Below are positions 31,545 to 63,326 of a stretch of DNA of 64,000 nucleotides, piece after piece (the stretch's first letter is position 1; each line of letters starts with the position of its first letter). The translations under genes and the position numbers were made by a program. The notes below the pieces were generated by a model that did no database searches, was not told the origin of the DNA, and was given only the letters and a program-made list of their open reading frames with translations. The DNA lies in assembly GCA_031655335.1 (NCBI GenBank), contig CP134226.1, positions 2,684,001 through 2,748,000 of the forward strand, read 5' to 3'. The DNA comes from Thalassospiraceae bacterium LMO-SO8 (GTDB taxonomy: Bacteria > Pseudomonadota > Alphaproteobacteria > Rhodospirillales > Casp-alpha2).

Positions 31545-31908
31545 GTTTCGTCCCGTCGCAGCCGCCGGAGAACATTCAGACGGCAGGCTTGTAAAGGTCG
31601 GGCAGAGATCAATCGACCGAACATCAAGGGGCGCCTGAATCCGGTTTGGAAAGCGGAATTGGCTTCCGGTTGAGCAGGGCGCCGGGGCCCATCGGGGCAC
31701 TGCTTGAGGTGGCCTTTCGACTGTTTGCAGAAATGGGCGCATCGGGCTGGAAATACCCTGCGTAAGATCAATCCGATTCGTCTCCGTCTTGTCGATTGCC
31801 CAAGGGGGGGCAGCATTTTTGCCTTGGTTTCGATACATTTGCAAATCGCTTCCACTACGAACAGCATCGGTGGAAAGATTCCACGCCGCGTATATGTTGC
31901 GATTTATT

Positions 31909-39080: not shown

Positions 39081-39084
39081 GATG

Positions 39085-40850: not shown

Positions 40851-40856
40851 GTCAGG

Positions 40857-42137: not shown

Positions 42138-42156
42138 TATCGTCGCCTATATTCCT

Positions 42157-42879: not shown

Positions 42880-42911
42880 GTCATCAACTCTGTCATACGC
42901 CTTCGTAAGGC

Positions 42912-44021: not shown

Positions 44022-44049
44022 CGAAAGCTCTTTTGTGAGGGAATCCCGC

Positions 44050-44793: not shown

Positions 44794-44797
44794 GGGC

Positions 44798-45412: not shown

Positions 45413-46149
45413 GAATCCCCCTGGGTTTTCTGTGGCACCCGGTAGGTGGGATCGAACAGCTTCGGCTCCCGTTCCGCCAGGGCCTCGATCTCGGTCACGC
45501 CGAATAGCGGGTTTTGCGGATAGAGGGCGTCAAAAATCTTGGAAATCCGATGGTAATCGTGAACCGTGTCGAGAAGGCATTTCAAATGGCTGCGATCCGG
45601 TTTGCGGTGGATTTCGATTTTTGGAAAGCGCTCCGGAAGCCGTTCAAAGAACGGGATCATGGTTTCCCGTTCGTACATGTCCCGGGTCTCCCGTTCCAAG
45701 GCGCGCAGCGCCTCCGTCTTCAGGACGTGGGTCTCGGTGCCTTCCGGAAAGCCTGAATTGCCAGGGTAACAGGCCCAGGCGGCGCCGGTGCTGGTTGCAG
45801 CCTGGAGCAGACCGGCCGCGAGGTCGGGGTCGGTCACAGGGCAATCCCCCCACATCCGCACCAGAATGTCCGCCCCCGTCAGGTCTGCCGCCATCAGGAA
45901 CCTGGATACCAAATCGTCGTCCGGCCCACGGACAACCTTGATCTCAGGATAATCCGCCGCCGCCTCGGCGATGGGGTCGTGGGCCTCGCCCTCGGGGATG
46001 GCGAGTACGAAATCGTCAAGCCCCTTGATGCGCAGGGCCCGATCGAAAAGATGATGGATGACCGGCCGGCCACATAGCGGCAGCAGGGCCTTCCGGGCAA
46101 GCCGGATCGAAGTAAGACGCGCCTGAATGACGCCAACGGCCTTAGTCAT
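45409..46149 (-). CDS. SpsF-like cytidylyltransferase (copy 3, altered motif)
   Basis: This 246-residue protein is related to the other two copies. Its signature, VIQARLTSIRLARKAL, has Ala-Arg in place of the canonical Pro-Gly before the Lys. RMWGDCPVTDP keeps the metal-binding Asp. Activity is uncertain. It overlaps hisH by four bases. Confidence 0.8.
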   Translation of the reverse strand: MTKAVGVIQARLTSIRLARKALLPLCGRPVIHHLFDRALRIKGLDDFVLAIPEGEAHDPIAEAAADYPEIKVVRGPDDDLVSRFLMAADLTGADILVRMWGDCPVTDPDLAAGLLQAATSTGAAWACYPGNSGFPEGTETHVLKTEALRALERETRDMYERETMIPFFERLPERFPKIEIHRKPDRSHLKCLLDTVHDYHRISKIFDALYPQNPLFGVTEIEALAEREPKLFDPTYRVPQKTQGDS

Positions 46150-46184
46150 CGGTTCCTCGCGGCGCTCCGGCCCGAATGGAGATG

Positions 46185-48032
46185 TCAGACCACGTCATGT
46201 TGATGATCCAGGAAGATACGGGCGGAGATGAAGCTGAACAAGAACTTGGAGAAGCTGTTGGAGGTCATGTCTTGATCGAGGAAGCGGGTGAACTTGTCGC
46301 GGTCGACCAGGTCGAAGATTGGGCCGTCGGCCAGAAGACGTTCCCGCGTCGCTGGATCGCGCCGGTCGACCAATGAATTGATGGAGGCGTTGAATCCCCG
46401 TTTCCGTTTGTCCAAGCGTACGGCATCGGGCACGAGCCCTTCGCCGGACCGGCGCAGCAGAAGCTTCGCGAAGCCGTCGCCAATGAGATATTCCGACGGG
46501 ACGCTGTAAAGGAATTCCGCGAGGTGCCGGTCCAGGTAGGGGGATCTGTTCTCCACGGAGTACTGCATCGAATTGCCGTCATCCTCATGAAGGATGACGG
46601 GCACGACCTCGGCGAACAGCTCGTTCATCATCCGGTTGCGGAGCAGTTCGGAGGTGAATTCGGTCTCGGCAAAAGCCTCGTGGAAGTCGACGGCGAGAAG
46701 GCTTTCGAAGACATCCTGGTCCAATAGGATGTGTTCGCGGCAATCCGGAGACTTCACGAAGGTCATGGGATCCTGGAGAAGGGGATTTTGAACGTATTGT
46801 CCGAAACTACCGTTCCAGTCCGACAACAGGGCGTCGAAGTCGACCGTCGGATCGATCTGGGCGCGTTTCCACATCTGGGCAAGCCACATGGAATAGTGAT
46901 CGTAGTATCCGGTGTACAGTTCGTCGGCCGCCGTCCCTGAAATCGACACCTTGTACCCGGCCTCGTGGATGGCCTCGGACAGAAAGGAATGGACGTAGTA
47001 GCTGATTGTCGCGATCGGAGCGTCGTGATAGGCGACCAGATCGTTCATGCGCGCGAAGAAACCTTCGGTCGAAGTATGGATGGCTGTGTGGCGGCAGCCC
47101 AAGGCCTCGACCATCAGCTGGATGTTGCGGCTTTCGTCATAGCGCTCGTCCCGGTCGATGATCGAGAAGCAGTGGATGTCATGGCCCAGCTGTTTCGTCG
47201 CGATGGCGGCTAGGGTCGAGGAATCGACCCCGCCGGAAAGACAAAAGGCGAGCGGGACATCGGCGCGGAGGCGCAGGCGGACGGAATCAAACAGTCGGGC
47301 CCGGGCGCCTTCCACTGCCTCTTCCGCCGACATGGGGCGGGGGATGTGGCGCAACTGCCAATAAAACTCAGGCACTTTCAGGGTGGCGGAATCGAGCGTC
47401 AGGTAGGTCGAGGGCGGCAATTCGAACACGCCGTCGAAGAAGGTATCGCCTTGGCTGTAGAGGGTGCGAAAGCCATTGGTCAAATAGCGCAGGATCTGGG
47501 ATTGGTTGACCGGCGGCCGACGCCCTGCCAGGGCGATCAAGGTCTTGACCTCAGAGGCGAAATACAACGTCCCGTCTTGCGGCCAAAGATACAGGGGCTT
47601 TTCGCCGAATCGGTCACGGCACAGCGTCAGGGTGCCGGCCCGGCGGTCGACCAACGCGAAGGCCCACATGCCCTCCAGCTTGTCCAGGCAGGCGGGGCCC
47701 CACCGCCGCCAGGCGGTAAGCAGCACTTCCGTGTCGGAGGAGGTCAGAAAACGCTCGCCCAGGGCTTCCAGTTCGGATTTCAGCTCCAGGTAGTTGTAGA
47801 TCTCCCCGTTGTAGGAAATCACGAGATCGCCCTGTTCGAACGGCTGGTTGGCGCGGGGGTCCAGATCGATGATCGAAAGGCGGGTGTGGAAGAGGGATGC
47901 GCGGGTCTCTCCCAAGGGCAGGTCGACGGAGCCCTGCGCGTCGGGGCCCCGACGCGCCATGGAACGCAATGCCGCCGCCGCGCGTTCGGGCGACGGCACC
48001 CTGCTTCCGATGGTTCCCGCGATACCGCACAT
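46185..48032 (-). CDS. Asparagine-synthase-like amidotransferase
   Basis: This 615-residue glutamine-dependent enzyme has an N-terminal Ntn glutaminase domain (nucleophile Cys2) and a synthetase domain with SGGVDSS. In surface-glycan clusters AsnB-like proteins amidate a sugar acid or other carboxylate rather than aspartate. Length is normal. It lies between the formyltransferase-like gene and the cytidylyltransferase on the same strand. Confidence 0.85.
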   Translation of the reverse strand: MCGIAGTIGSRVPSPERAAAALRSMARRGPDAQGSVDLPLGETRASLFHTRLSIIDLDPRANQPFEQGDLVISYNGEIYNYLELKSELEALGERFLTSSDTEVLLTAWRRWGPACLDKLEGMWAFALVDRRAGTLTLCRDRFGEKPLYLWPQDGTLYFASEVKTLIALAGRRPPVNQSQILRYLTNGFRTLYSQGDTFFDGVFELPPSTYLTLDSATLKVPEFYWQLRHIPRPMSAEEAVEGARARLFDSVRLRLRADVPLAFCLSGGVDSSTLAAIATKQLGHDIHCFSIIDRDERYDESRNIQLMVEALGCRHTAIHTSTEGFFARMNDLVAYHDAPIATISYYVHSFLSEAIHEAGYKVSISGTAADELYTGYYDHYSMWLAQMWKRAQIDPTVDFDALLSDWNGSFGQYVQNPLLQDPMTFVKSPDCREHILLDQDVFESLLAVDFHEAFAETEFTSELLRNRMMNELFAEVVPVILHEDDGNSMQYSVENRSPYLDRHLAEFLYSVPSEYLIGDGFAKLLLRRSGEGLVPDAVRLDKRKRGFNASINSLVDRRDPATRERLLADGPIFDLVDRDKFTRFLDQDMTSNSFSKFLFSFISARIFLDHQHDVV

Positions 48033-48080
48033 CTCGTCGACTGCCGGATTACGAAGGGGAGGAAATGAGATGCGGGCGGG

Positions 48081-48794
48081 TCAATTGAGTGCCTCCGTAT
48101 GGCGGCGGAATTTTTCGGCGCAGATTTCCTTGAGAACCCGGGGCATGAACGAATATTTCCGGCCGCGTTGCTGCAACGGCGTGATGATCCGCATGCGGCC
48201 CGCGGAGAACGACGCGACCGCAGCGTCGCTGATGTCGATGAAGGTTTCGGTGCTGGCGTGGCGCAATTGGTGCAGCTTCATGCCGTGGTGAAGGCGGATG
48301 GGCTTCTGTTCCAGAACAGCGCCGGTATTCAATTCCGGTGCAACATACTGAACTGTCGTGATCAACCCCTCGAAGTCTCCGTGATAGACCGCCCAAAGGT
48401 CCGTGTCGAGGCCCCGGTATTCCTGCGGCGCCCCGCAATGAAGTGTGACAAGACGCTGCCCGAGAACGGCAAGGATCGGGCCGGATAGCTTTCGCGTACC
48501 GAACACGATCGCCGCCTCGACCTTGAAGTCAGCCAGCTTCTCCGCCGCCGAAGACGTGGATAGGGACGGAAACTCGGCTGCCGGCGCAAGGTCGCCGAGC
48601 GCGGGCTCGGACCCGGAGAACCAAGTATGGCGTTCGAAGGCGTCGCGTTCGTCGTCTATCGGATGCGAGGTGTCGAAGGGGGCTGCGGGGAGGTCCGTTT
48701 CCACCAGAACGCCGGCCACCTTATGCCGTTCGGCCATGGCTGCGACGAAGCGGGCATGATGAGGCGATTGCGTTGTCAGAATGGCGATGCGCAT
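48081..48794 (-). CDS. Formyltransferase-like protein
   Basis: This 237-residue protein resembles PurN/Fmt-type formyltransferases (LHCGAPQEYRGLDTDLWAV). The catalytic His in LHC is present; the conserved Asn is not, and the Asp in DTG is Asn (ELNTG). It may formylate an amino-sugar, as VioF and related enzymes do, or use a modified chemistry. It is the first gene of the minus-strand glycan operon. Confidence 0.75.
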   Translation of the reverse strand: MRIAILTTQSPHHARFVAAMAERHKVAGVLVETDLPAAPFDTSHPIDDERDAFERHTWFSGSEPALGDLAPAAEFPSLSTSSAAEKLADFKVEAAIVFGTRKLSGPILAVLGQRLVTLHCGAPQEYRGLDTDLWAVYHGDFEGLITTVQYVAPELNTGAVLEQKPIRLHHGMKLHQLRHASTETFIDISDAAVASFSAGRMRIITPLQQRGRKYSFMPRVLKEICAEKFRRHTEALN

Positions 48795-48974
48795 GGAGCT
48801 ACCGCAGTTTGTTGCAGGTTCTGGGTGAACTTGTAATCCCTAATGAGATGGGGATCATATATCGTTGCACGCTAGCTTTAATTCCTTAAGGGGCGGTTGA
48901 CGCCCATCCCCGACCCGGGCACGAATAAGCGGCGCGCCCGGGCGCCGCTGGTTTCATCGATACGGATCCGCAAT

Positions 48975-49853
48975 ATGGCCAAGCTGACAGAGAACGACTT
49001 TTTCGAGGTTCTGGAGGCGCTGCTTCCCGAGGATGATGAGGTTGTCGCGATTTATTCCGGACTTTGGACCTTTGCCGGGGGGTTCGGCTGGCCGCCGGAC
49101 CAGATGGGGGAACGCGTCCTGCGCCTGATCGAGGACTTCCTCGGTCCTGACCGAACCTTCGTGCTGCCAGCATACAGCTTTCTGGATTTCGCCCGGTTCC
49201 GGCGGTTCGACTTGGTCCGGACCATGACGGAAACCGGTGCCTTGCCTGACGCTGCCTTGGCCTGTTACGCCGCCGGGGATCGCGGCTGGATGCGCAGCCG
49301 ATCGGCCATGAACAGTTATTTGGTTCGAGGGCCGCGGTCCGCCGACCTGCTCGCCCGGCCCTGCACGACAGCCTGGGGGGCGGATGGTGTCCTGGGGTGG
49401 CTGTGTGACGTCAATGCTCGGGTCTGCGTTCTCGGCGTGCCCTGGGTTTCTTGCAGCATGATGCACCACGCCGAGGAACTTCAGATGGTGCCTTATCGGT
49501 ACTTCAAACGGTTCGCCGGAACGCTGTTCAAGGACGGCCAGGAAATCGGCCCCTGCGTCGAGGTCATGTATTCGCGTTCCCTCCATGCCGTGCCGGAATG
49601 GGACATCACCGGGTTCGGCGCGGAACTGCGGGCCCAAGGGGCCGTCGAGGTCAGCGATAACCGGCGCATCCCCATGGAGTCCGGCCCGGCGCGGGAGGTG
49701 CACCGCGTCAACAGCGACTTGTTTGCCGCCGATCCCTACTGCTACATCACCAACAAGGATGTTCTCGAAAGCTGGATCGCCAACGGCAAGGAGGCCGAGG
49801 TCGCCGGGCTCAAGCCCGAGGAGCGCTGGCCGCAGCCCGCCGCCGCCGATTGA
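48975..49853 (+). CDS. AAC(3)-family N-acyltransferase
   Basis: This 292-residue protein belongs to the aminoglycoside 3-N-acetyltransferase family by its MMHHAEELQMVPYRYFK motif and N-terminal VVAIYSGLWTFAGGF. In surface-glycan clusters such enzymes transfer acyl groups to amino-sugars; a role in antibiotic resistance is not suggested. I use the ATG at 48975. It is divergent from the formyltransferase gene. Confidence 0.8.
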   Translation: MAKLTENDFFEVLEALLPEDDEVVAIYSGLWTFAGGFGWPPDQMGERVLRLIEDFLGPDRTFVLPAYSFLDFARFRRFDLVRTMTETGALPDAALACYAAGDRGWMRSRSAMNSYLVRGPRSADLLARPCTTAWGADGVLGWLCDVNARVCVLGVPWVSCSMMHHAEELQMVPYRYFKRFAGTLFKDGQEIGPCVEVMYSRSLHAVPEWDITGFGAELRAQGAVEVSDNRRIPMESGPAREVHRVNSDLFAADPYCYITNKDVLESWIANGKEAEVAGLKPEERWPQPAAAD

Positions 49854-49862
49854 TCGGGGGCC

Positions 49863-51242
49863 CTATGACAGGTTGGCTCGGACTTTCTTGAACCGGACGT
49901 TGTGATGCCCTTCGGCATCGACCACGACGAACCGTACCGGCACCTTGTATTTCGCCAGGCGTTCGTTGCACTGCTGGCGCAGGCGTTCCGACAGTTCGAA
50001 CGGGTCTTCCGGTTCGAACAGGGAGACCTTGGCCTGGACAACCTGGCCCATGATCGGGTGGGGGCGGGCCTCTACCGTCGCGTTGCGGATGTTGGACAGG
50101 GACATCAGCACGTTCTCGACCTCGATAGGATAGACTTTCTTGCCGCCGGTGTTGATGACCTCGGTCTTGCGGCCCAGGAACCGCATGTAACCGTCCTTGA
50201 TTTCAACCTCGTCGCCGGTGCACATCCAGCCTTCCGCGTCGAACGGGTCGGGCGCATTCAGGTAGCCCACCATGTTGGCTTCGGACCGGATCCACAGAAT
50301 GCCGTCGACCACCTTGGTTTCGAAGCCGCTGCCACCGACCTTGAGCCAAAGGGAGCCGTTGTCGCGGGATTCGGACCGTAGAACGCCCAGTTCCGACAAC
50401 CCGTAGGTCTGCTTCAGTTTGGCGTTGGGGAAGATTTCCGAGACCTGTTGCAGGGTTGCCTCGGGCATCAGTTCGGTGCCGTAGGTGATCAGTTCGACCG
50501 AAGACAGGTCATGGGCCGCGTAGATGCGGCTGGCGATCAGGAAGTTGAGGAACGTGGGCGTCGTCGGCAGCAGGGTGGCGCGGGCGGTTTCGATCGCCCT
50601 GGCCACGACAGCGGGATCCCTGACCCCTCCCAGGCATACGCCGGCACCGCCGTAGGCAAAGGTCGACAGGAAGGTGTTGAAGCCCCCGAAGTGATCCATC
50701 AGCAAGAACAGAACCGTCCGCCACCCCTTGCGCGGTGTGATGAACTTGCGCGACACCTGGGTTACGTCCTGAAGGATGCCCTTGGGCTTGCCGGTGGATC
50801 CGGAGGTAAAGACGACCAGCCCCGGATGCCCGCGTTCGCGGAATTTGGCGATCAGGTCCGGCGTTTGCGGTGAGGGGCGATGTTCGCAAGTCACCTGATC
50901 GTCGGCGTTGAATCGGTAGAGTACAACCGCGCCCGCCATGTCCAGAAGACCGCCGAGTTCCGCATCGACGTCGCCGGTCAGGGGCACGATGATGGCGCGA
51001 CGCCGAATGGCGGCGAGCATCATGGCGCTCGTCTCGGGGCTGAAGTCGCCGTACAGGGCGGCCACGTCCCCTGCATTGATGCCATCGTCGGCGAGGCGCT
51101 TGTCCCAGGCCTCTATGCGGCGCCAAAGGTCGGCATAGGTCGTTTCCATGCCGTTCCAGAACAATGCGGGGGCGTCCCCGCCGCCCTGGATGCGCGACAG
51201 GATGATGTCGTGGGCCGGAATGTCCTTGTCGCCTGAGGTCAT
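49863..51242 (-). CDS. AMP-dependent acyl ligase
   Basis: This 459-residue adenylate-forming enzyme has the A-motif VFTSGSTGKPKG and a C-terminal domain with GRKTEVINTGGKKVYP. It would activate a carboxylic acid as its AMP ester and load it onto the ACP encoded directly upstream, whose stop overlaps its start (ATGA). The substrate is unknown. Confidence 0.88.
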   Translation of the reverse strand: MTSGDKDIPAHDIILSRIQGGGDAPALFWNGMETTYADLWRRIEAWDKRLADDGINAGDVAALYGDFSPETSAMMLAAIRRRAIIVPLTGDVDAELGGLLDMAGAVVLYRFNADDQVTCEHRPSPQTPDLIAKFRERGHPGLVVFTSGSTGKPKGILQDVTQVSRKFITPRKGWRTVLFLLMDHFGGFNTFLSTFAYGGAGVCLGGVRDPAVVARAIETARATLLPTTPTFLNFLIASRIYAAHDLSSVELITYGTELMPEATLQQVSEIFPNAKLKQTYGLSELGVLRSESRDNGSLWLKVGGSGFETKVVDGILWIRSEANMVGYLNAPDPFDAEGWMCTGDEVEIKDGYMRFLGRKTEVINTGGKKVYPIEVENVLMSLSNIRNATVEARPHPIMGQVVQAKVSLFEPEDPFELSERLRQQCNERLAKYKVPVRFVVVDAEGHHNVRFKKVRANLS

Positions 51243-51484
51243 GTGAATGCGATGCCGTGTTCTTCCAAGACGATCCTGATAAGCGGGTAGTTGAGAATTT
51301 CGACCGTCTGCTCCTCGGTAAAGGAGATGTCGAATTCAGCCTCCAGGGCCAAAACCAGATTGAGATGGCGCAGAGAATCCCACTGTTCCACCGTGTCGAC
51401 GGAGGTGTCTTCGCCGATTATCGCCGCATCGATCTTGAGGATGTCCGCGATCACGCCCTTGAGCCGAGTTTCATTGCCGGTCAT
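51239..51484 (-). CDS. Acyl carrier protein (copy 1)
   Basis: This 81-residue ACP has its phosphopantetheine Ser in WDSLRHL (about Ser37). A good ribosome-binding site (AAGGA) precedes the ATG. Position between fkbH and the AMP ligase suggests it is their shared carrier. It is distinct from the ACP at 54560-54868. Confidence 0.9.
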   Translation of the reverse strand: MTGNETRLKGVIADILKIDAAIIGEDTSVDTVEQWDSLRHLNLVLALEAEFDISFTEEQTVEILNYPLIRIVLEEHGIAFT

Positions 51485-51494
51485 TTGTCGTTCC

Positions 51495-53342
51495 TTACTG
51501 CTCGTCCCCGCCGTCGTTTCCGTCGGCGAGGTGAATCCAATCCGGGATTTTTATATCCTGGCCGCCCAGGTCCAGGCGCCACGATGTTCCTTCGCCCTGT
51601 TCGGGAAATTGCGCAAATCCCCGCTTGGCGTAGAAGTCCGCGACCTGCTCATTCTTCTTGGTGGGAAGATAGGTGCCGACAATTTCCTGATAACCGTTCA
51701 TCGCGGCATCTTTGGCGATGCGCGCCATCAGGGTATCCTCGGCACCGCGCCCCAGCGCCCGGCAAGACATCAGGAAGGTGTCAATCTCCAGGCGTTCTCC
51801 GTTCTCTTGCGGCTTGGTTATGGCGACGCCGATCAGGCCGATGTCAGAGACCTTGTCACGAAGTTTCAGGTAATAGACGCCCGTGTCCGGCGCCGCGAGG
51901 AAGCGTTCGATATCGCCTTCCGTATAGCGGCGGGTGGTCAGGTTGAATTGATTGGTTTTCTGGGTCAACTGCGCGACCCGCCCGATCTCGCGCGGGCCCG
52001 GCACGCCGATCGTGGCGACGATTTCCAGGCTGCGTAGGTAATCCTCCAACGATTCCGCGGTGCTCACCATCCGCTTGCGGGTGCGTTCGGCGGCCATCAT
52101 CTCGCTGCGCTTGGCATCCTCCGCCGACAGGGTTGGCGTGTCGAAGAAGGCGCGGTCCGTCAGAAGGGTGCGGAAACCCGAGGGATCACCCGACACATGC
52201 AGGACGGCGACTTCCGGAACGGCCTGACGGATGAAGTCGCATTCGAAGGCGTTGTCATCCGCGAATACGAGCGCGTCGATGCCGATGTTCAATTCCTCGG
52301 CGATGCGCCGCAGGTTCGTCGCCTTGTCGTCCCAGTTGATCTGCGTGGCGACGAAATGCTCCTCGCGCAGGAGCATGTCCGGGTGTTCGCGCAGGACCTC
52401 GAGAACGTCCGGTTCATTGTTCTTCGAACAGATCGCCAGCATGACGCCGCGCCGGCGCAGGTTCAGGGCCTCGCGCTGAAAAGCTTGGTAGGCAGCACTA
52501 ACCTTGATGCCGTCAAGGCCGTCCTCGCCGACAATTCCACCCCATAGCGTTCCGTCGCAATCGAGAACCAAGCATTTGCGGACCTGCCCGAACAACACCC
52601 GCAACAACGCCCCGTAATGGTCGCCGAGGGGGGCAAGAATTTCCGCCGAAAGCGGGGCCCGGGCGGCGTTCCAATGGCGGTCGTTAACGGCATGCCGGTA
52701 CCCATGGGCCGCGAACAGGCTGAAGTAATCGACCCAATAGACATCGGTGATCTGCTTTGCCGCGGCGATCAGCGCCTGGTTCAGGCGGATCAGCGCATGG
52801 GTTTGATAGCAGGTGTCCTGTGCATCGAGAATGCCCATGGCGGGCGCGGCGGGAAGCGGGAAATTGTTGATCAGGATCGGGGCGTTGCTTTGACGCCGGA
52901 TGGCGGAGAGCAACATCACCGTATCCTGGCACAGCCGGTCAATTTCCGTGGCGACGTCCTGCGCGGTCAGTTCGGGAAACGCCGTCGCCAGTTGCGGGGA
53001 AAGGGTTTCCAACCAATTGGCGATGATGATCGCATCGGGGTTGTGCCGGTAAAGTCCGGCATCGGGATTATGGACCTCGGCCGCGGAGGCATCGAAATCG
53101 GCGACATAGGTTTCCGGACGTCTGCCGCATAACAGGACCTGGGCCTCGATTGCCGGCAAAACCGGCTCGATTGTGAAATTCCGCAAAACCGCCAGACGAT
53201 AGGGCGGGAATCGATCCTCGGGCGCGGCCTCCTTGGCGTTCGCAAGGGCCGAATAGGCAACATATCCGGGGTCCCGGCGCGCGCGGTCGAGGGCGGCCTC
53301 AAACGGCGACGGCGGCTTCGCGGCGACGTCGTCCGGCATCAT
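51495..53342 (-). CDS. FkbH-like HAD protein with C-terminal GNAT domain
   Basis: This 615-residue protein has an N-terminal SGNH-like region, an FkbH-type HAD domain (LDCDGTLWGGIVGEDG) in the middle and a GNAT-like domain in the final 150 residues. FkbH relatives make glyceryl-ACP from 1,3-bisphosphoglycerate. In flagellin-glycan islands of Pseudomonas similar genes occur. The ATG at 53342 overlaps the upstream methyltransferase stop. Confidence 0.85.
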   Translation of the reverse strand: MMPDDVAAKPPSPFEAALDRARRDPGYVAYSALANAKEAAPEDRFPPYRLAVLRNFTIEPVLPAIEAQVLLCGRRPETYVADFDASAAEVHNPDAGLYRHNPDAIIIANWLETLSPQLATAFPELTAQDVATEIDRLCQDTVMLLSAIRRQSNAPILINNFPLPAAPAMGILDAQDTCYQTHALIRLNQALIAAAKQITDVYWVDYFSLFAAHGYRHAVNDRHWNAARAPLSAEILAPLGDHYGALLRVLFGQVRKCLVLDCDGTLWGGIVGEDGLDGIKVSAAYQAFQREALNLRRRGVMLAICSKNNEPDVLEVLREHPDMLLREEHFVATQINWDDKATNLRRIAEELNIGIDALVFADDNAFECDFIRQAVPEVAVLHVSGDPSGFRTLLTDRAFFDTPTLSAEDAKRSEMMAAERTRKRMVSTAESLEDYLRSLEIVATIGVPGPREIGRVAQLTQKTNQFNLTTRRYTEGDIERFLAAPDTGVYYLKLRDKVSDIGLIGVAITKPQENGERLEIDTFLMSCRALGRGAEDTLMARIAKDAAMNGYQEIVGTYLPTKKNEQVADFYAKRGFAQFPEQGEGTSWRLDLGGQDIKIPDWIHLADGNDGGDEQ

Positions 53343-54292
53343 GCGTGCTCCAGCAGCGCGCAATAATTGACGGTCACCAATTCCTCTTCCCACTTTTCCT
53401 CGGGAATGTTCTCTGCCGCGAGAGCCAAATCGTGGCGGATGCGGAACCCGGACTCGGCCATCAATTGCCGGATCTCGGCAGCGGAATGGAAATGGTAGAC
53501 ATGATCCAGCGCGGGGCAGTTCGCACAGGTCGACATGTAGACGGTGCCGCCTGGGGCCAGAAGTTCTTTGGTCCGGTCCATGAAGGCTCGTGCATCGTTC
53601 ACGTGTTCGAGAACCTCGCCCATGACGATGAAATCGAAATCTTGGCCGCCGACGTCGGTGGTCAGGTAGTCGCCGTGCACGATCTTCAGCCGGTCGAGGT
53701 CGGCCTGGAAGGTCCGAAGAGTTTCCTTCGCGATGCGGATCGAGGTTTCGCTGATGTCAACGGCGGTTCCATGGATGTTGGGATAGCGCGACAGCATGGT
53801 CGAGGAGAACAGGCCGTGGCCGAGGCCGATTTCCAGATAGCGGCCAGTATTGGCGGGGGGCAGGTGTTCCAGGAAAAAACGGAACAATGCGTAATGGTTC
53901 GGCCAGAACATGTACGAAACCAAGAGGCCGATCATGTAATAGCGCATGACACTCAGGTCATTGTAGACGTGGGTCTGTGCCAGGCAGGAATTGTCGATCC
54001 GGTACTTCCCTGATTTCTTGAAGCGGATCTGTTCCGACAGGAAGTCCATGCACATCTTGTTGTATGCCCGGGCGGCCTCTGCTCGGGCGGTGTCGTCGGT
54101 CATGAAACTGTGGTTGAGAATTCGGCTCAGGCCTTCGGCGAAGGCCCAGTATTCCGGCCCGCGGGTCGCCAGGAAACCTTCGATTCGCTTCTTTTGAAGC
54201 GGGTTTTCACTGGCGATCAGATTGATAATCCGTGTCAATTCGGGGCAATCGTCTCTGCCTTGCGGCGCTTTGTCGGCGGCCATGGATGTCAT
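53339..54292 (-). CDS. SAM-dependent methyltransferase
   Basis: This 317-residue class I methyltransferase has the SAM motif LEIGLGHGLFS at about residues 145-160 and a long N-terminal helical part. It is the first gene of the minus-strand fkbH-ACP-ligase operon. It may methylate a sugar or acyl chain. An ATG three codons downstream is also possible. Confidence 0.85.
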   Translation of the reverse strand: MTSMAADKAPQGRDDCPELTRIINLIASENPLQKKRIEGFLATRGPEYWAFAEGLSRILNHSFMTDDTARAEAARAYNKMCMDFLSEQIRFKKSGKYRIDNSCLAQTHVYNDLSVMRYYMIGLLVSYMFWPNHYALFRFFLEHLPPANTGRYLEIGLGHGLFSSTMLSRYPNIHGTAVDISETSIRIAKETLRTFQADLDRLKIVHGDYLTTDVGGQDFDFIVMGEVLEHVNDARAFMDRTKELLAPGGTVYMSTCANCPALDHVYHFHSAAEIRQLMAESGFRIRHDLALAAENIPEEKWEEELVTVNYCALLEHA

Positions 54293-54559
54293 GTCTGAGC
54301 CCTAAAATTCCTGCAAAGGCCGAATTGAGGTTTCGGCTGTCATGCCATGGTGGATGGGATATGGCCTGAAATCATTGCGCCCGACCGGGCGTTATGAAGC
54401 CGAGCGTTACGAAGATAGAACCACAATCCGATTCTAACGAAATGTTCACCTTTCTCCCCTCCGATATCGCGTGGCAATTAAACCAAATGTTAGTTGCTAA
54501 AGTCTTACCCTACAGGATACTAGCAAGCACCCGTGAGAACCGGAAGGAGCGACTCCGAG

Positions 54560-54868
54560 ATGATCGACAAGCAGAAGGCGATGGCCCTTATTCAGGACAG
54601 CCTGGACAGTTTGAACCGCTCCGGCACAATCAAAAACGCCATCGCCGTCGATGGCGAGACGGTCCTGATGGGAAGCGGCGCAGACAGTGGCCTTGATTCC
54701 CTTGGCTTCGTCACCTTCATCATGGATCTGGAAGACCGGCTGATGACGGCGATCGGGGCCGATTGCGCCATCGTTCTGACCGATATCCAGGGGTTTGACA
54801 TCAACAGCCCGACACTGACGGCGGGCATTCTTGCGGACCATGTCGTGGGGCTTTCCGCAGGCGCCTGA
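54560..54868 (+). CDS. Acyl carrier protein (copy 2)
   Basis: This 102-residue ACP has its attachment Ser in GLDSLGFV at about residue 43. AAGGAG lies ten bases before the ATG. It heads the plus-strand mini-fatty-acid operon and would carry the growing chain for the KAS III and reductase genes downstream. Confidence 0.88.
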   Translation: MIDKQKAMALIQDSLDSLNRSGTIKNAIAVDGETVLMGSGADSGLDSLGFVTFIMDLEDRLMTAIGADCAIVLTDIQGFDINSPTLTAGILADHVVGLSAGA

Positions 54869-54912
54869 TCCGCATGGCGTGACGGCGGCGTGGCGTAGAG
54901 GTTGGGGGCCAT

Positions 54913-55638
54913 ATGGCTGACACAGACCAAGGCAAAAAGGTGGTGGTCGTCACCGGTGCCAGCCGGGGGCTCGGTCGGGCATTGGCCGAACACTTTTTGG
55001 CAAGGGGTTATGTAGTCGCCGGCTGTAGCCGCGGGGAGGCGACGATCTCCGATCCCGCCTACCATCACTCGACCGTCGACATCCGTAACGAAGGCGACGT
55101 CCAGGCCTGGGCGCGGGCGCTGCGCCGCGAACTTGGCGGTGTCGACATCCTTATCGCCAATGCCGGTCTGGCCCGTTCGGCTCTGTACCTGTCGCTGACT
55201 CCGGGAGACGTCTTTGACGACTTTTTGCGCGTCAATTTCGCGGGCGTGTTCTACAGCCTGCGGGAGATCAGCAAACTGATGCTGCGGCGGGAGAATGCAC
55301 GGATATTGACGATTTCTTCGACCATGGTGCCTCTGCATCAGGAAGGCACGGCCTGCTATTCCGCGACCAAGGCCGCGGTCCAGGAAATGACCAAGGTTCT
55401 GGCCAAGGAATTGGCGCCGCAAGGCATCACCTGCAACGTCATCGCGCCGGCGATGATGGATACGGAGGCGTCACAGGAACTGGCCAAGGATAACGATTGG
55501 AAGGAGCGGATGCTGCGGCTACAGACCATCCCCCGGGTGATCGCCATGGAGGAAGTCTGCCACGTCGCGGACTTTTTCGTTTCGCCCCAAAGCGCCGCGA
55601 TTACCGGCCAAGTCATCTATATCGGGTTGGTTGATTGA
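54913..55638 (+). CDS. FabG-like short-chain dehydrogenase/reductase
   Basis: This 241-residue SDR has the NADP motif TGASRGLGRA at about residues 15-25 and the YSATKAAV catalytic motif. It would reduce a 3-ketoacyl-ACP to 3-hydroxyacyl-ACP. The C-terminus is normal. The family has wide substrate range, so ketoreductase activity is inferred from its ACP/KAS neighbours. Confidence 0.88.
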   Translation: MADTDQGKKVVVVTGASRGLGRALAEHFLARGYVVAGCSRGEATISDPAYHHSTVDIRNEGDVQAWARALRRELGGVDILIANAGLARSALYLSLTPGDVFDDFLRVNFAGVFYSLREISKLMLRRENARILTISSTMVPLHQEGTACYSATKAAVQEMTKVLAKELAPQGITCNVIAPAMMDTEASQELAKDNDWKERMLRLQTIPRVIAMEEVCHVADFFVSPQSAAITGQVIYIGLVD

Positions 55639-55643
55639 ACTCC

Positions 55644-56333
55644 ATGGGGCCTGATCGAGAATGCCAGGTCGGGGACTACCGGATCGCTACGGTGAAAACC
55701 GGCCGTTGGAAGGAAAACGCCTATGTCGTTCAGCATGTGCCGAGCGGCGAGGCCGTCCTGGTCGATCCCGGCGACGATGCGGAACGCATCATGGGCGTCA
55801 TCGCGGCGTTTGACGCGTCGCCCCGCGTGATCCTGCTGACCCATGCCCATTTTGACCACATCGGCGCCTTGGATGCCTTGTGTCGTGAATACGGTCTGCC
55901 GTTCCACATGCATGGCCGCGACCTGCCCCTGCTGCGTCGTGCATCCCTCTATGCCATGAGCTTCGAGCGCCGGGTCATCACCGTGCCCGACGCGCATGTG
56001 CCGCTGGAAGGGGCGCGGCTTGATTGGAAAGGGGCTCCGATTTCCTATGTCCATACGCCGGGCCATACGGACGGCGGCGTGTGTTACCATTGGAACGGCT
56101 TATGTTTTACCGGGGACACGTTGATGAAACGCTTGATCGGCCGCACGGATTTACCGGGGTCGAGCGGCGTGGGTTTGTCTGAATCGATCACCCGTTTGCT
56201 CGAAACCTTGGCCCCGGAAACGTTGATGTTCCCGGGACACGGCGGCACCTGGACCGTGGCGGAAGCCCGGGAATGGTGGGCGGTGAACCAGGCCGATCCG
56301 CCGGAATACTTGATGGAGGGGTTTGGGCGATGA
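55644..56333 (+). CDS. Metallo-beta-lactamase-fold hydrolase
   Basis: This 229-residue hydrolase has the HAHFDHIGA Zn-binding motif and a second His in HTPGHTDG, typical of glyoxalase II-like enzymes. In an acyl-carrier operon it may hydrolyse a thioester. The ATG at 55644 is used; a TTG three codons earlier overlaps the SDR stop. It overlaps the next gene by four bases. Confidence 0.85.
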   Translation: MGPDRECQVGDYRIATVKTGRWKENAYVVQHVPSGEAVLVDPGDDAERIMGVIAAFDASPRVILLTHAHFDHIGALDALCREYGLPFHMHGRDLPLLRRASLYAMSFERRVITVPDAHVPLEGARLDWKGAPISYVHTPGHTDGGVCYHWNGLCFTGDTLMKRLIGRTDLPGSSGVGLSESITRLLETLAPETLMFPGHGGTWTVAEAREWWAVNQADPPEYLMEGFGR

Positions 56334-57334
56334 CGCGTGACCGGGACTACGGCGTCGGTGTCGTCGGTGTCGGGAAGTATCTGCCCGACGGCGTCCTGAG
56401 CAACGCGGACCTGGAAAAATCCAGCGGCATGTCGGCGGCCGATATCGAGGCCAAGACCGGCATCCGCACCCGCCGGATCGTCGGCGACGACGAAACGGCC
56501 TCGGAAATGTCCGCCGCCGCCGCCCGCGACGCCTTGGCCATGGCGGGCATTGGCCCGGAGGATCTGGGCCTGATCATCACCTGCACCTTCACCGGCGACT
56601 ACGTCTATCCGGCCGTGTCCTGCCGCATCCAGGACATCCTGGGGGCCTACAACGCGGGCGCCTTCGACATCATGGCGAACTGCACCGGCTTCCAGGTCGG
56701 GCTCGGCGTCGCGGCCGACCGCATGCTGGCCGACCCGACCATCGACTACGTCCTGGTCATGGGCACGGCCCTGCAGTCGCGCTTCATCGACCGCACCGAC
56801 GCCGCCTCGGCGATGTATTTTGGCGACGGCGCCGGGGCCGCCGTGCTCGGCCGCGTCGATGCCGGCTACGGCATCATTGCCAACGATGTCACGGCCAACG
56901 GCCGGGTGTTCGATGCCGTGCGCCTGCGCGGCGGCGGATCGTCATTTCCCATGCGCGCCGACAATGTCGACCAGGGCCTGCAGTACTATGAAATCCAGGG
57001 TCTGGAAGTCTGGAAGCAGGTCGTTCAGAATCAGCCGGTCTCCATGCGTCGGGCGTTGGCCAAGGTGGATATGACCGTGGAGGACGTGGATTTCTTCGTC
57101 TTCCATCAGGCCAATCTGCGGCTGATCGAATTCCTCATGGGGAAATTGCGCCTGCCCATGGAAAAGACGGTGATCAACGTGGACGAATACGGCAACACGG
57201 CGGACGCTTCGCAGGCCATCGCCCTGTGTGATGCGGTCAGTCAGGGACGGCTGAAGCGCGACGACATCGTGATCGTTTCCGGCGTCGGCGCCGGCTTCAT
57301 TTTCGGCACAACCGTCATGCGGTGGCAGGGATGA
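56330..57334 (+). CDS. 3-oxoacyl-ACP synthase III (FabH-like)
   Basis: This 334-residue ketosynthase III has its catalytic Cys in ANCTGF, His in FHQAN and Asn in YGNTAD, an intact Cys-His-Asn triad. It would start a chain by condensing an acyl-CoA with a malonyl-ACP. ATGA overlaps with both neighbours show translational coupling. Confidence 0.93.
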   Translation: MTRDRDYGVGVVGVGKYLPDGVLSNADLEKSSGMSAADIEAKTGIRTRRIVGDDETASEMSAAAARDALAMAGIGPEDLGLIITCTFTGDYVYPAVSCRIQDILGAYNAGAFDIMANCTGFQVGLGVAADRMLADPTIDYVLVMGTALQSRFIDRTDAASAMYFGDGAGAAVLGRVDAGYGIIANDVTANGRVFDAVRLRGGGSSFPMRADNVDQGLQYYEIQGLEVWKQVVQNQPVSMRRALAKVDMTVEDVDFFVFHQANLRLIEFLMGKLRLPMEKTVINVDEYGNTADASQAIALCDAVSQGRLKRDDIVIVSGVGAGFIFGTTVMRWQG

Positions 57335-58617
57335 GCTACAAGCGCGAAGATAGCGAAGCGAAGGAACTGCACCTGGGCGACCTGGCGCCGGGCTACACGG
57401 CCGAGTTGAACCATCAGGTAACGCAGGCGGATGTCGATGCCTTCGCCGCCTTGACCGGCGATTTCAACCCGATCCACCTGGATCCGGAGTTCGCCCGCGC
57501 CACCTCGTTCGGCAAACCGATCGTGCACGGCATGCTGACCTCGGCCTTCATCTCCACCATGGTGGGCATGCTGTTGCCGGGGAAGGGGGCGTTGTGGACG
57601 TCCCAGACTCTCAATTTCGTGCGCCCGGCCTTTGTTGGAGACACGATCACCGTGCGCTCGGAGGTCACGCAGGTTTCGCCCGCGACGAGGACACTGGTCG
57701 CCAAGGTGACGATCACCAATCAGAACGGCGCCATCGTGGTGACCGGCGACTCGACGGTTCGTCTCCTCGGTGAGGCCGAGGGTGAAACGGCGCCACCGAA
57801 ATCGGCGGCCGGGAAACCGGCTTCCGCGATAGCGCCGCGGCCTGACCTTGCGGGTAAGGCGAAAGAAACAGCGGGTTCCGTCGTGCTGGTGACCGGGGGC
57901 AGCCGGGGAATTGGCGCGGCGACGGCATTGGCCCTGGCGGCGGACGGTCATGCGGTGGCCGTCAACTTCCTGCGGGATGCCGAAGCCGCCGATGGGGTGG
58001 CGCGCCAGATCACGGCGGCGGGTGGCCGGGCCGTGACCGTTGGGGCGGACGTTTCCAACATGGCTGCGGTCGATGCCCTGTTCACGGAAATCGAGGCGAC
58101 GTTGGGTGCCGTGACCGGCATTGTCCATTGCGCGGCACCGGAACCGGTGCCGCAGCCGTTCGGCGACGTCGGATGGGACGATTTCGAGAAACAATTCCGG
58201 GTCCAGGTCGGCGGTGCTCACCATTGCGCCAAACGGGCCATTCCGGGCATGGCGGCCTCGGGGCTGGGCGGGGCACTGGTGTTTCTGGGATCGATCTACG
58301 GCGACAGTGCACCGCCGCCGCAACAATCGGCCTACGTGGCGGCGAAGGCCGGGCTGGCTGGGCTGACCCGCTCGCTGGCGTCGGAATTCGGCCCCCAGGG
58401 CGTGCGTGTGAACCTGGTGGCGCCGGGTATGACCAACACGCAGATGATCGCCAACCTACCGGACAAGGCCAAGATGCTGGCGAAAATGAACACGCCCTTG
58501 CGCCGTCTGGCGGAGCCAGAGGACATCGCCAGGGTTATTGCCTTCCTGATCGGGGACGGCGGGCGGCATATTACCGGCGAGACAATCCACGTATCAGGCG
58601 GTGTCACCATGGGATGA
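57331..58617 (+). CDS. MaoC-like dehydratase fused to an SDR
   Basis: This 428-residue fusion has an N-terminal MaoC hot-dog domain (about 10-145) with DFNPIHLDPEFA and GMLTSAF, then a linker, then an SDR (about 180-428) with TGGSRGIGAAT and YVAAKAG. The dehydratase His/Asp are in the conserved loop. One protein therefore has both hydro-lyase and ketoreductase functions, in the order opposite to catalysis. It overlaps the KAS III gene. Confidence 0.9.
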   Translation: MSYKREDSEAKELHLGDLAPGYTAELNHQVTQADVDAFAALTGDFNPIHLDPEFARATSFGKPIVHGMLTSAFISTMVGMLLPGKGALWTSQTLNFVRPAFVGDTITVRSEVTQVSPATRTLVAKVTITNQNGAIVVTGDSTVRLLGEAEGETAPPKSAAGKPASAIAPRPDLAGKAKETAGSVVLVTGGSRGIGAATALALAADGHAVAVNFLRDAEAADGVARQITAAGGRAVTVGADVSNMAAVDALFTEIEATLGAVTGIVHCAAPEPVPQPFGDVGWDDFEKQFRVQVGGAHHCAKRAIPGMAASGLGGALVFLGSIYGDSAPPPQQSAYVAAKAGLAGLTRSLASEFGPQGVRVNLVAPGMTNTQMIANLPDKAKMLAKMNTPLRRLAEPEDIARVIAFLIGDGGRHITGETIHVSGGVTMG

Positions 58618-58688: not shown

Positions 58689-60047
58689 TCAGACGGCGTC
58701 GGCGTCCACGATCAGGCCGGCCTTCTTGAAGGCCGAGACGCATTCGTCGAACGCGAAGATCGGCAAATCGAACCAGTCGGCGATTTCCAACAGATCCTGT
58801 TCGCCGTCGACCGACGGCATCAGCGCGTAATAGGCCTCGCCGATGATGGTCGCGTTGCCGCCGACACCGGCGCCGTGCTGATAGGGGAAGACACCGTAAC
58901 GGGACAGGAAGGGGGTCGCGGTATAGGTGCCCTTGTAGCGGCGCGCGCGATCGACGGCCATGCAGGCGGCCCAGCCGATTTCCAAGGTGCCAAGCAGATT
59001 GTCGGCCGACACGAGGTCGAGATTGTCCGCTGAAGAATGATATTCGGGGTATCCTCCTTCCGTGCTCGACCCGGCGCGGGTGATGTTGGCGATTGGCAGG
59101 TCGACGCCGATCGAGTTGAAATGCATGGGATCGGAGCCGCCGAAAATATTGAATTTCCGGGAATTGATTTCCTGGCCGCACAGCAGCATGGCGTGATGGG
59201 CGGCCCGGTCGAAGACCGAATTGTTCCGTTTTGTGCGGTCAATGCGGACCGGCCGGTCGTCGCCGCAAATTCCGAACTGGTATCCGCCGATGGTCTTGGC
59301 CAGGCGATCCGGATATTTGTCGATATAAGTGATCGGCCCGATCGTTTCCGGCCAGATCACCAGCCGGTACGAATAGTACCGATCCGGCACCTGAGCCAGC
59401 AGCCGAAACAGTTCGGCCGCGACGACACAGCCGCTGAGGTTGTCGTTGGCGCCCCTGGGGTGGCAGAGATAGCTGGAAATCAGAATTTCGGTCTCGACCT
59501 CGCCGGGCAGGTAGTATTCACCCATGCGGAGGAAACCTTGGTTGTGTTCGGTGTCGATCTTGACCTTGTATTTTCCGGGTTTCAGGCGCTGCAGCATGTT
59601 GTCCGGCATGCAAAGGCCCCAGGCTTTTCGAAAGTAGGCCTGGCGCAGGGGGACGGCATCCGGCAGGTAAGGCATGGTCACCACATGCTCGAGAAGTTCG
59701 TCCTTGTCGACCTCCCCCTCGAACGGCTGCGAATAGATCCAAACGCTATAGGGCTCCTTGGCGAAATCCAAGATCCGGTTGCCGTCCGGGTCTTCGACCC
59801 AAGCCTCGTTGACCTTGAATTCCGGGGGGATGGTCCAATCGAGAACCTCTGCGCCCGTCGGGAATTCGACAATCTCGAGCGGCAGGTATTTCCGCATGAC
59901 CTCAAGGGATTGCAGGAAGCCCGGGCCGCAGAGAGAACGATAGACCGGGAACAGTTCCTCCATCTGCGCCCACATGGACTTCCGGTTTTCTGGGCCGGGT
60001 GGAATCAGTCCGGAAAACGTCTGTCGCCAATCCTCGGATCCACGCAT
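58689..60047 (-). CDS. M28-aminopeptidase-like protein (DUF4910-type)
   Basis: This 452-residue protein resembles the M28-like proteins common in polysaccharide clusters. CHPRGANDNLSG supplies His and Asp zinc ligands, and YPEYHSSADNLD a His ligand. It has no signal peptide. It may act on an amide bond in a glycan intermediate rather than on peptides. It converges with the MaoC-SDR gene and is divergent from the methyltransferase. Confidence 0.75.
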   Translation of the reverse strand: MRGSEDWRQTFSGLIPPGPENRKSMWAQMEELFPVYRSLCGPGFLQSLEVMRKYLPLEIVEFPTGAEVLDWTIPPEFKVNEAWVEDPDGNRILDFAKEPYSVWIYSQPFEGEVDKDELLEHVVTMPYLPDAVPLRQAYFRKAWGLCMPDNMLQRLKPGKYKVKIDTEHNQGFLRMGEYYLPGEVETEILISSYLCHPRGANDNLSGCVVAAELFRLLAQVPDRYYSYRLVIWPETIGPITYIDKYPDRLAKTIGGYQFGICGDDRPVRIDRTKRNNSVFDRAAHHAMLLCGQEINSRKFNIFGGSDPMHFNSIGVDLPIANITRAGSSTEGGYPEYHSSADNLDLVSADNLLGTLEIGWAACMAVDRARRYKGTYTATPFLSRYGVFPYQHGAGVGGNATIIGEAYYALMPSVDGEQDLLEIADWFDLPIFAFDECVSAFKKAGLIVDADAV

Positions 60048-62057: not shown

Positions 62058-63326
62058 ATGTCTGACGTTACTCTTTCGTCCGCCGTGCGCGGATCGCTGC
62101 TTTCCCTTCAAAGCACCACTGACCTGATTGACCGGACAAACGGCCGTTTGTCTTCCGGTCTTCGCGTTGCCAGCCCGATCGACGATCCGGTGTCCTTCTT
62201 CTCGGCGAAAACCCTGAACGACCGTGCGTTCGACTTCGGCGAACGCAAAGACGGCATCGACCAGGGTGTTTCGACGGTGACGGCGGCGCTGGACGGCGTG
62301 GACGGCATCGACAGCCTGGTCCGTCAGCTTAAAGGTATTGCGAACTCCCTGAAATCGGCGACGGGTAGCCAATTTACCGACTTGGTCACCCAGTTCAACG
62401 ACATCCGTGGCCAGATCGGTGACTTGGCCAGCGACGCTGAATATCAGGGCGTCAATCTGGTTGACGGCACGTCCGCAACCTTGACGGTGAACTTCGCCAA
62501 CAACACCTCGTCGATCCTGACCGTCAACTCCACCAACCTGCGTCAATCGGGTCTCGGCATTGACGTGGCCGAACTCCGCACCGACTCCAAGGTGTCATAC
62601 GCGGCCACGACGGGCACGACGATCACCAACACGGCGACCAACTTCTCGGCCATCACGTCGTTCTCCGACGCGGGCGGCACCTTCACGGTGACGTTTAACG
62701 GCACCGGTGAGCGTGTGTTCACCACGACCGGCGGCAACAGCCTGACCATTTCCTTCGGGACTGCCTCCTTCACGATCCGGGCGGCGACGAACGCCGACGT
62801 GACCATCACTCAGGGCGCCGTCATCACCCTGCAGGTTACGACGACGGTCAACGCTTCCGACTTCCTGGCCGCCACCAACTCCACGACGGCCGTCGAAATC
62901 AACCTGGATCAGACTTCCTTGCTCGCCGTGTTCACGGGCGGGGGTATCGTTCTCGGCACCGCCGCGGCGTCAACCGGGGCGATCACCCTGACCGACTCCT
63001 CGGGAACGTTCCAGGAAGTCGACTTCGTCGGTGAAGGCCGGACTGCCGACCTTGATGCCGTCATCACCGGTCTGGACAGTGCGTTGACGACGCTCCGGTC
63101 GGAATCCCAGAAGCTGGGCTCGAACGTGGCTCTGCTGCAGACTCGTCTGGATTTCACTGAGGCGCACATCAACACCCTGGAAGAAGGTGCGGGCAAGCTG
63201 ACGCTGGCCGACCTGAACTCCGAAGGCGCCAACCTGTTGGCTCTGCAAACCCGGCAGCAGCTGGGTATTTCCGCTCTGGCCTTCGCCGGCCAGTCGGAAC
63301 AGGGCATCCTGGCGTTGTTCAACTAA
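62058..63326 (+). CDS. fliC: Flagellin (copy 1)
   Basis: This 422-residue filament subunit has conserved N- and C-terminal coiled-coil regions: NGRLSSGLRVASPIDDP at the start, and LLALQTRQQLGISALAF near the end. The extreme N-terminus (SDVTLSSAVRGSLLSLQ) is unlike enterobacterial flagellin but fits a divergent alphaproteobacterial type. The central part (about 145-330) is rich in Ser and Thr, with many candidate O-glycosylation sites. GGAG lies six bases before the ATG. A strong terminator follows. Confidence 0.95.
   Translation: MSDVTLSSAVRGSLLSLQSTTDLIDRTNGRLSSGLRVASPIDDPVSFFSAKTLNDRAFDFGERKDGIDQGVSTVTAALDGVDGIDSLVRQLKGIANSLKSATGSQFTDLVTQFNDIRGQIGDLASDAEYQGVNLVDGTSATLTVNFANNTSSILTVNSTNLRQSGLGIDVAELRTDSKVSYAATTGTTITNTATNFSAITSFSDAGGTFTVTFNGTGERVFTTTGGNSLTISFGTASFTIRAATNADVTITQGAVITLQVTTTVNASDFLAATNSTTAVEINLDQTSLLAVFTGGGIVLGTAAASTGAITLTDSSGTFQEVDFVGEGRTADLDAVITGLDSALTTLRSESQKLGSNVALLQTRLDFTEAHINTLEEGAGKLTLADLNSEGANLLALQTRQQLGISALAFAGQSEQGILALFN

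Follow-up and report, generated by a model that had tools for sequence, protein, structure and literature searches.

The window analyzed here, a 64,000-nucleotide stretch of contig CP134226.1 of Thalassospiraceae bacterium LMO-SO8, carries a nine-gene cassette that is real, coherent, and rare and that lies among amino-sugar and flagellar genes. This apparently mobile cassette probably serves the N-acylation of an amino sugar: a short hydroxyacyl group, O-methylated, would be built on an acyl carrier protein (ACP), and in this organism the sugar would most likely reach flagellin. The set is not a chance grouping, since the same nine genes stand together in six further genomes.

Gene content and distribution of the cassette

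The cassette and its two flanking genes are listed below.

48975..49853, + strand, N-acyltransferase of the AAC(3)/Antibiotic_NAT family (Pfam PF02522, 1.2e-14; scanned as a longer frame starting at 48897)
49863..51242, - strand, AMP-forming acyl ligase (PF00501, 1.1e-34; PF13193)
51239..51484, - strand, acyl carrier protein a (ACPa; PF00550)
51495..53342, - strand, FkbH protein with FkbH_N and HAD-IIIC/FkbH domains (TIGR01686, PF21211)
53339..54292, - strand, S-adenosylmethionine-dependent methyltransferase (MT) with a helical N-terminal domain (PF13489, 2.3e-18)
54560..54868, + strand, acyl carrier protein b (ACPb) of a divergent family (DS[LIV] serine; weak PF00550)
54913..55638, + strand, FabG-like ketoreductase of the short-chain dehydrogenase/reductase (SDR) type with a YxxxK motif (PF00106, 1.7e-44; nearest PDB entry FabG)
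about 55644..56333, + strand, glyoxalase-II-like hydrolase of the metallo-beta-lactamase (MBL) fold (PF00753, 9.9e-26; PDB 2zwr)
56330..57334, + strand, beta-ketoacyl-ACP synthase III (KAS III) with a Cys-His-Asn triad (NF006829)
57331..58617, + strand, MaoC hydratase/dehydratase fused to a FabG-like SDR (MaoC-SDR; PF01575, 4.8e-25; PF13561, 1.3e-56)
58689..60047, - strand, DUF4910/DUF2172/M28 zinc hydrolase (PF16254, 2.6e-66; PDB 3k9t, 1.2e-65)

The core (ligase, ACPa, FkbH, MT, ACPb, SDR, MBL, KAS III, and MaoC-SDR) occupies positions 49863-58617 and forms two divergent operons separated by a gap of 267 bp, with the AAC(3) and DUF4910/M28 genes on the flanks. Neighboring genes overlap by 4 bp at four junctions (ligase/ACPa, FkbH/MT, MBL/KAS III, and KAS III/MaoC-SDR), and the AAC(3) and ligase genes stand tail to tail. 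Pfam and NCBIfam scans found in place every gene that an initial annotation of this DNA had named; that list had missed the MT (53339-54292) and the DUF4910/M28 hydrolase (58689-60047).

The genome of the window and 60 relatives were searched with the MT. Of these 61 genomes, 58 had a match at an E-value of 0.001, and strong matches were found only in the window, in genome G004 of the same genus (79%), and in G038, which belongs to another family of the same order (69%). Two long matches at 28-29%, in a second locus of the window's genome and in G003, were not counted as orthologs, nor were the numerous weaker ones, most of which were confined to the methyltransferase domain. The G038 copy retains the whole run of eleven genes, AAC(3) to DUF4910, with unchanged order and orientation at 49-76% identity. 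The AAC(3) ortholog occupies the same position (60% identity), the DUF4910 ortholog is likewise in place, sugar genes lie nearby, and about 16.5 kb separates a flagellin gene from AAC(3). The G004 copy is truncated at both sides, in the ligase and MaoC-SDR genes, by contig ends.

A collection of 84,980 species was then scanned with a profile built from the three MT orthologs. Four of the 24 candidate stretches were confirmed: the G004 contig (L036), a Flavobacteriaceae metagenome-assembled genome (MAG; L037), a Chloroflexi MAG (L038), and Polynucleobacter bastaniensis (L039). This count is a lower bound, since the scan required exact short peptides. Both MAGs contain the full set of nine core genes. 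A short open reading frame interrupted by a stop lies between MT and FkbH in the Flavobacteriaceae copy (L037:10894-11196); we take it to resemble the start of a PIG-L-type deacetylase. The Polynucleobacter core is divided over two contigs (L039 and L095) at an IS3-type element within the MBL gene. An IS3-type transposase gene is present at this break (end of L039 and L095 1-1836), and a stretch of 127 bases is identical between the two contigs. The seventh copy, a diverged and reordered set, was found in G551 (locus L076), a genome from the sample of the phylum of L037. Eight of its genes (SDR, MBL, KAS III, MT, MaoC-SDR, FkbH, ACPa, and ligase) are 27-42% identical to those of the window, and its ACPb gave a weak match of 29 bits with the DSL serine present. 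Thus, the core occurs in seven loci of three phyla: of the six other hosts, two come from the same order as the window, two are Bacteroidota, and the remaining two are Polynucleobacter and a member of the Chloroflexi. The ligase ortholog adjoins ACPa in all seven copies, that of G004 being cut by the contig end. Among viral contigs, the MT profile yielded 38 pattern-matching stretches and no confirmed relatives.

Within each host group the cassette is rare. At an E-value of 1e-45 or below, the MT profile matched 4 of 297 genomes of the window's order, three of which carry the cassette; the fourth, G1030, has FkbH, MT, and ACP, and KAS III, ligase, and MBL were not found on its 13 kb contig. 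The other matches were L037's own genome and G551 in a sample of L037's phylum (2/345), and the already known host in samples of the genus Polynucleobacter (1/151), of the phylum of L038 (1/301), and in the family of G551 (1/22). At 1e-90, the KAS III profile recovered only the window's own enzyme in the class (1/270). In a phylum sample of 398 genomes, 15 reached 1e-30, and only the window's own protein scored above 300 bits. The next-best protein, of G177 (281 bits), was accompanied by FkbH, MT, and ACP alone in the 12 kb read.

In a phylogenetic tree, the seven cassette KAS III proteins formed a single clade (support 100/99). Nine FabH-type proteins from these seven genomes, one of them a row with a long branch, fell outside it. 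The cassette thus has a KAS III of its own, distinct from FabH of the same genome. The occurrence in three phyla, the absence from most sampled relatives, and the KAS III tree point to the spread of the cassette by horizontal transfer.

Predicted enzymes and product

The FkbH protein scored 294.8 bits against TIGR01686 (cut-off 146.65; scanned with a longer start at 53393) and matched PDB entry 3slr. The aspartates of the HAD motif and the Cys of the SCRALGR motif are conserved in six aligned copies; the Cys of CSKN was also considered as a strictly conserved residue and rejected, as G004 has Asn there. FkbH is proposed to be the glyceryl-ACP loader. The serine of the WDSLxHL motif of ACPa is conserved in the six aligned copies and in L076. 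In ACPb the PP-binding match is sub-threshold (E-value 0.0095; 16.6 bits vs. 20.8 needed), and the serine of DS[LIV] is conserved in seven copies. The predicted model of MT (pLDDT 83) had small-molecule methyltransferases as top Foldseek matches, with a TM-score of about 0.5 and root-mean-square deviations mostly above 10 A; this loose match suggests a resemblance to class I small-molecule methyltransferases and does not indicate the substrate. A PHROGs search with three proteins gave one generic methyltransferase match and nothing else.

KAS III scored 290.7 bits against NF006829 (cut-off 249), and its catalytic Cys, His, and Asn are conserved across the copies, with Asn in the motif GNTADAS/GNTGSAS. 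With this triad retained, the enzyme should condense rather than merely transfer acyl groups. In CerJ/ChlB3-type KAS III acyltransferases, the third catalytic residue has changed from Asn to Asp; assignment of the cassette enzyme to this type was rejected because the residue is still Asn. Both SDRs, the stand-alone one and the MaoC fusion partner, contain the YxxxK motif, and the best PDB match of the MaoC part is the (R)-specific enoyl-CoA hydratase 1iq6. The MBL protein is a proposed thioesterase, AAC(3) a proposed acyl-ACP:amino-sugar N-acyltransferase, and the DUF4910 protein a proposed sugar N-deacylase, presumably of the Cj1295 type, since we place Cj1295 in DUF4910/DUF2172.

Family knowledge suggests the following reactions, substrates, and final target. 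FkbH would load a glyceryl unit from 1,3-bisphosphoglycerate on ACPa, and MT would O-methylate a hydroxyl. The AMP ligase could load a second acid, or re-load a free one, on ACPa. The dedicated KAS III would probably lengthen the chain once on ACPb, with a malonyl-derived unit, after which the two YxxxK SDRs could perform reduction and the MaoC domain dehydration or rehydration. The MBL protein may act as an editing or releasing thioesterase. The DUF4910 protein would remove an existing N-acetyl group, and AAC(3), replaced elsewhere perhaps by a PseH-like GNAT, would transfer the acyl from ACP to the freed amine of the activated sugar, the putative acceptor here being a nonulosonic acid or its precursor. 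The sugar would finally be placed on flagellin in this organism and on other surface glycans in other hosts.

Described systems share parts of this set. The viosamine island of Pseudomonas syringae comprises vioA, vioB, vioT, vioS, vioR, vioM, and acp, where vioS encodes a KAS III, vioR a reductase, vioB an acyltransferase, and vioM a methyltransferase (PMC3927599, in part). According to the same part of that paper, flagellin of vioA, vioB, vioT, and vioR mutants lacks the N-hydroxybutyryl sugar, the flagellin glycan of the vioR mutant is rhamnose only, and the sugar of the vioM mutant is demethylated, whereas no mutant in KAS III is described there (PMC3927599). As in this island, KAS III, ketoreductase, ACP, and N-acyltransferase genes of the window lie beside an amino-sugar pathway, and an MT gene is also common to both. 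However, the seven genes listed there do not include FkbH, AMP ligase, MaoC, a second ACP, or MBL (PMC3927599, in part), so the window set is larger, as had been proposed initially. The island also serves dTDP-viosamine with 3-hydroxybutyryl, in contrast to the nonulosonic-acid-type sugar genes of the window.

The Campylobacter jejuni flagellar glycosylation locus includes the FkbH gene cj1302 (PMC7099621, in part). Cj1295, which has an aminopeptidase-like domain, is required for di-O-methylglyceroyl pseudaminic acid on flagellin, and the authors hypothesized that the protein acts by cleaving the acetamido group at C5 (PMC3068675, in part). The window likewise combines nonulosonic acid genes with a DUF4910-type hydrolase, AAC(3), FkbH, ACP, and MT, all within a flagellar island. 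The corresponding Campylobacter features are the N-acetyltransferase gene Cj1296/7, pseudaminic acid, and a flagellin locus, and the product is a C3 di-O-methylglyceroyl group. The Campylobacter locus presumably also has ACPs, MT, FabH, and ligase, in a gene order different from that of the window; we know of no MaoC-SDR, SDR, or MBL in that pathway. For the FkbH/MT/DUF4910/AAC(3) half, the nearest known system is this Campylobacter di-O-methylglyceroyl pathway rather than the Pseudomonas islands of the initial comparison.

A reading modeled on Campylobacter, which we consider unlikely, would confine the product to three carbons: FkbH, ACP, MT, and MaoC would make a C3 (di-)O-methylglyceroyl group, AAC(3) would transfer it after the action of DUF4910, and KAS III, ligase, ACPb, SDR, and MBL would make an unrelated second acyl group. 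Apart from the requirement for Cj1295, it is favored by a second glycan locus in the window's own genome (G000:C1, about 1655500-1675600; L033 and L034). There, a compact row of ACP, MaoC-SDR, FkbH, AAC(3), DUF4910, and MT genes lies kilobases from PseB-like and DegT genes, and no matches to KAS III, ligase, or MBL were found in this row. A separate row comprises MT, ACP, MaoC, FkbH, HisF, HisH, and PseA. One FkbH of this locus was recognized by 29% tblastn similarity only, with no Pfam match; a motif or a short stretch of similarity identified the ACPs, and MT matched weakly. In our view, the locus resembles the Campylobacter gene arrangement. A row of MT, ACP, MaoC, FkbH, HisF, HisH, and PseA, like that of the window genome's second locus, also occurs in a species of the same genus that yielded no cassette (L035, G003:C3:45001-65000). 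The surroundings of distant MT relatives are in line with the C3 product too: of 16 stretches, some of them truncated at contig borders, nine showed FkbH and none showed KAS III, ligase, or MBL. On the other hand, the nine core genes are grouped in all seven loci, including those with a shuffled order, which argues for one product, and KAS III retains its full condensing triad. The window cassette looks like the compact core enlarged by KAS III, ligase, a second ACP, SDR, and MBL.

Other pathways overlap less with the cassette. FkbH, ACP, and methyltransferase genes stand side by side in the FkbG-K pathway to methoxymalonyl-ACP, but no Pfam match to the acyl-CoA dehydrogenase or 3-hydroxyacyl-CoA dehydrogenase of this pathway (FkbI/FkbK) was found in the set or its scanned neighbors. 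Nor did the scans of the set reveal a full type II fatty acid elongation system, which would include malonyl transferase and enoyl reductase. Flagellin islands of enterobacteria and Aeromonas contain ACP, AMP synthetase or CoA ligase, and 3-oxoacyl reductase genes, and horizontal exchange of flagellin islands has been reported for enterobacteria (PMC4875605 and PMC7874193, in part). Unlike the cassette, these sets include LuxC/LuxE, and the main text of PMC4875605 mentions neither "FkbH" nor "malonyl". Targeted searches of open-licence PMC papers turned up no description of the nine-gene set.

Target of the acyl group

An N-acyltransferase-type gene adjoins the ligase in all six loci where this end is visible (the G004 contig ends inside the ligase). 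It encodes AAC(3) in the window and G038 and a GNAT in L037, L038, L039, and L076; the best PDB match of a profile of the L037-L039 GNATs was the sugar N-acetyltransferase PseH (4xpk). Amino-sugar genes were present near the cassette in all six loci with readable flanks. PseB scored above the cut-off in L037 and L038, as did PseC in L037; L039 contains a PseB-like gene and two NeuB genes, and L076 two FdtA-type isomerases and a DegT aminotransferase. We take FdtA to mark a dTDP-3-amino-sugar context. By this genomic context, provision of an acyl group for amino sugars is well supported as the general function.

Pfam and NCBIfam scans also revealed, near the Pse genes, class III aminotransferase-type genes (L037:7579-8913, L038:4007-5383, and L039:5787-7112) and aldo-keto reductase-type genes (L037:3533-4369, L038:3131-3994, and L039:2766-3644). 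They may give the sugar another amino group and recall Aeromonas group I flagellin islands (PMC7874193, in part).

The same neighborhood makes it highly improbable that the cassette is a secreted polyketide or lipid cluster lying by chance in a glycan island. FkbH domains also occur in natural-product clusters, such as that of dysinosin (PMC6520454, in part), but amino-sugar genes and an adjacent N-acyltransferase-type gene accompany the same six loci, and no modular synthase or exporter was among the scanned genes of the set.

The sugar and flagellin features of the window are as follows.

29365-30087, NeuB-family protein of 240 aa, beside the fusion gene 30084-31844
37371..48794, - strand, sugar genes: GNAT fusion, Gfo/Idh, three cytidylyltransferases, DegT, WbuX amidotransferase, HisF, HisH, AsnB, and formyltransferase
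37371-39107, - strand, glycosyltransferase-like domain (weak matches) fused to GNAT
62058..63326, + strand, flagellin (PF00669/PF00700)

Upstream are flagellar genes for FliF, FliG, FlgD, a FliK-type protein, a rod/hook-type protein, and a MotA/ExbB-type protein, and genome search showed that a second flagellin spans the window end. These scans support the initial description of a coherent acyl-making set beside sugar-activation and flagellin genes. The sugar, as judged from its genes, would be nonulosonic-acid-like; pseudaminic and legionaminic acid are not separated, the PseC and PseF matches of the window being below their cut-offs. WbuX scored above its cut-off, and the glycosyltransferase-like domain of the 37371-39107 fusion is perhaps PseG-like. 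The AsnB-type amidotransferase and formyltransferase genes beside the sugar genes (46185-48794, - strand), both present in G038, are likely to provide further sugar decorations. In the fusion gene at 30084-31844 (- strand), a glycosyltransferase of family 2 is joined to a PseF-like cytidylyltransferase that is under the cut-off. A 666-aa protein encoded beside the flagellins (L005:2439-4439, - strand) has a weak PseD-type match (50 bits vs. a cut-off of 670) and is a candidate flagellin glycosyltransferase.

Flagellin is the likely acyl target in this organism. Alternatively, the acylated sugar could be part of lipopolysaccharide, capsule, or another surface polymer, with the flagellin genes being mere neighbors. 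The distribution of flagellin gives this option some weight: a search for the flagellin N-domain, which was positive in 4 of 14 control genomes (Escherichia coli, Bacillus subtilis, Caulobacter, and Thermotoga), gave two matches in Polynucleobacter and none in either the Flavobacteriaceae or the Chloroflexi MAG, whose completeness is not given, and the G551 copy stands beside FdtA genes. Nevertheless, we regard it as improbable for the window organism, where the cassette lies within a flagellar gene cluster with two flagellins and the PseD-like match adjacent, and a flagellin gene is also near the G038 copy. The initial label of a flagellar set thus holds for the neighbors in this genome and is not a defining property. 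With two MAGs free of flagellin matches and one copy on the FdtA side, the cassette is not flagellin-specific and is better read as a general amino-sugar acylation kit that follows amino-sugar pathways rather than flagellin.

Several observations weigh against the proposed synthesis of an O-methylated hydroxyacyl group and its delivery to flagellin. The product is a prediction from genes, and the second locus suggests that FkbH-type acylation can do without the KAS III half. Neither a malonyl-transferase (AT) match nor the YX6K motif typical of enoyl reductases was found in the set, so the purpose of the dehydratase is not evident. DUF4910 and AAC(3) accompany only the window and G038 copies, and no M28 or AAC3 matches were reported in the scans of L037-L039 and L076; deacylation and AAC(3) transfer are therefore not universal steps. 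Further GNAT genes lie near the PseB genes in L037 (3012-3449) and L038 (1279-1803), so acyl transfer is not necessarily the task of the GNAT beside the ligase. As for flagellin, besides the two MAGs, the nearest match in Polynucleobacter is more than 110 kb from the cassette part on the same contig. In the window organism, flagellin attachment is deduced from gene neighborhood, and a promoter scan found no sigma-28 or sigma-54 consensus at the operons.

Significance for amino-sugar acylation

Acyl groups on bacterial amino sugars can affect motility, the binding of phages, and recognition by the immune system, and many such groups lack an assigned route of synthesis. Flagellin of Treponema denticola reportedly carries 2-methoxy-4,5,6-trihydroxyhexanoyl at N7 of a pseudaminic-type sugar, and we know of no explanation for the biosynthesis of this polyhydroxy-methoxy acyl. 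Going further than the route proposed above, the cassette could be a stand-alone miniature polyketide line that is traded between phyla as an amino-sugar plug-in and produces a C5-C6 polyhydroxy-methoxy acyl from glycolytic intermediates, KAS III joining glyceryl-ACP to an O-methylated unit; the product would then be of the kind of the Treponema N7 group. We hold this version to be quite doubtful. PseH sets the N7 group, and the PseH-like GNAT beside the ligase in three copies would fit attachment at this position.

The cassette separates an acyl-making kit from the sugar pathway that it serves. As a compact set present in three phyla, with N-acyltransferase families beside it that differ between hosts, it offers a handle for predicting and making acyl groups, and it provides candidate genes for the unexplained polyhydroxy-methoxy acyl groups on flagellin.

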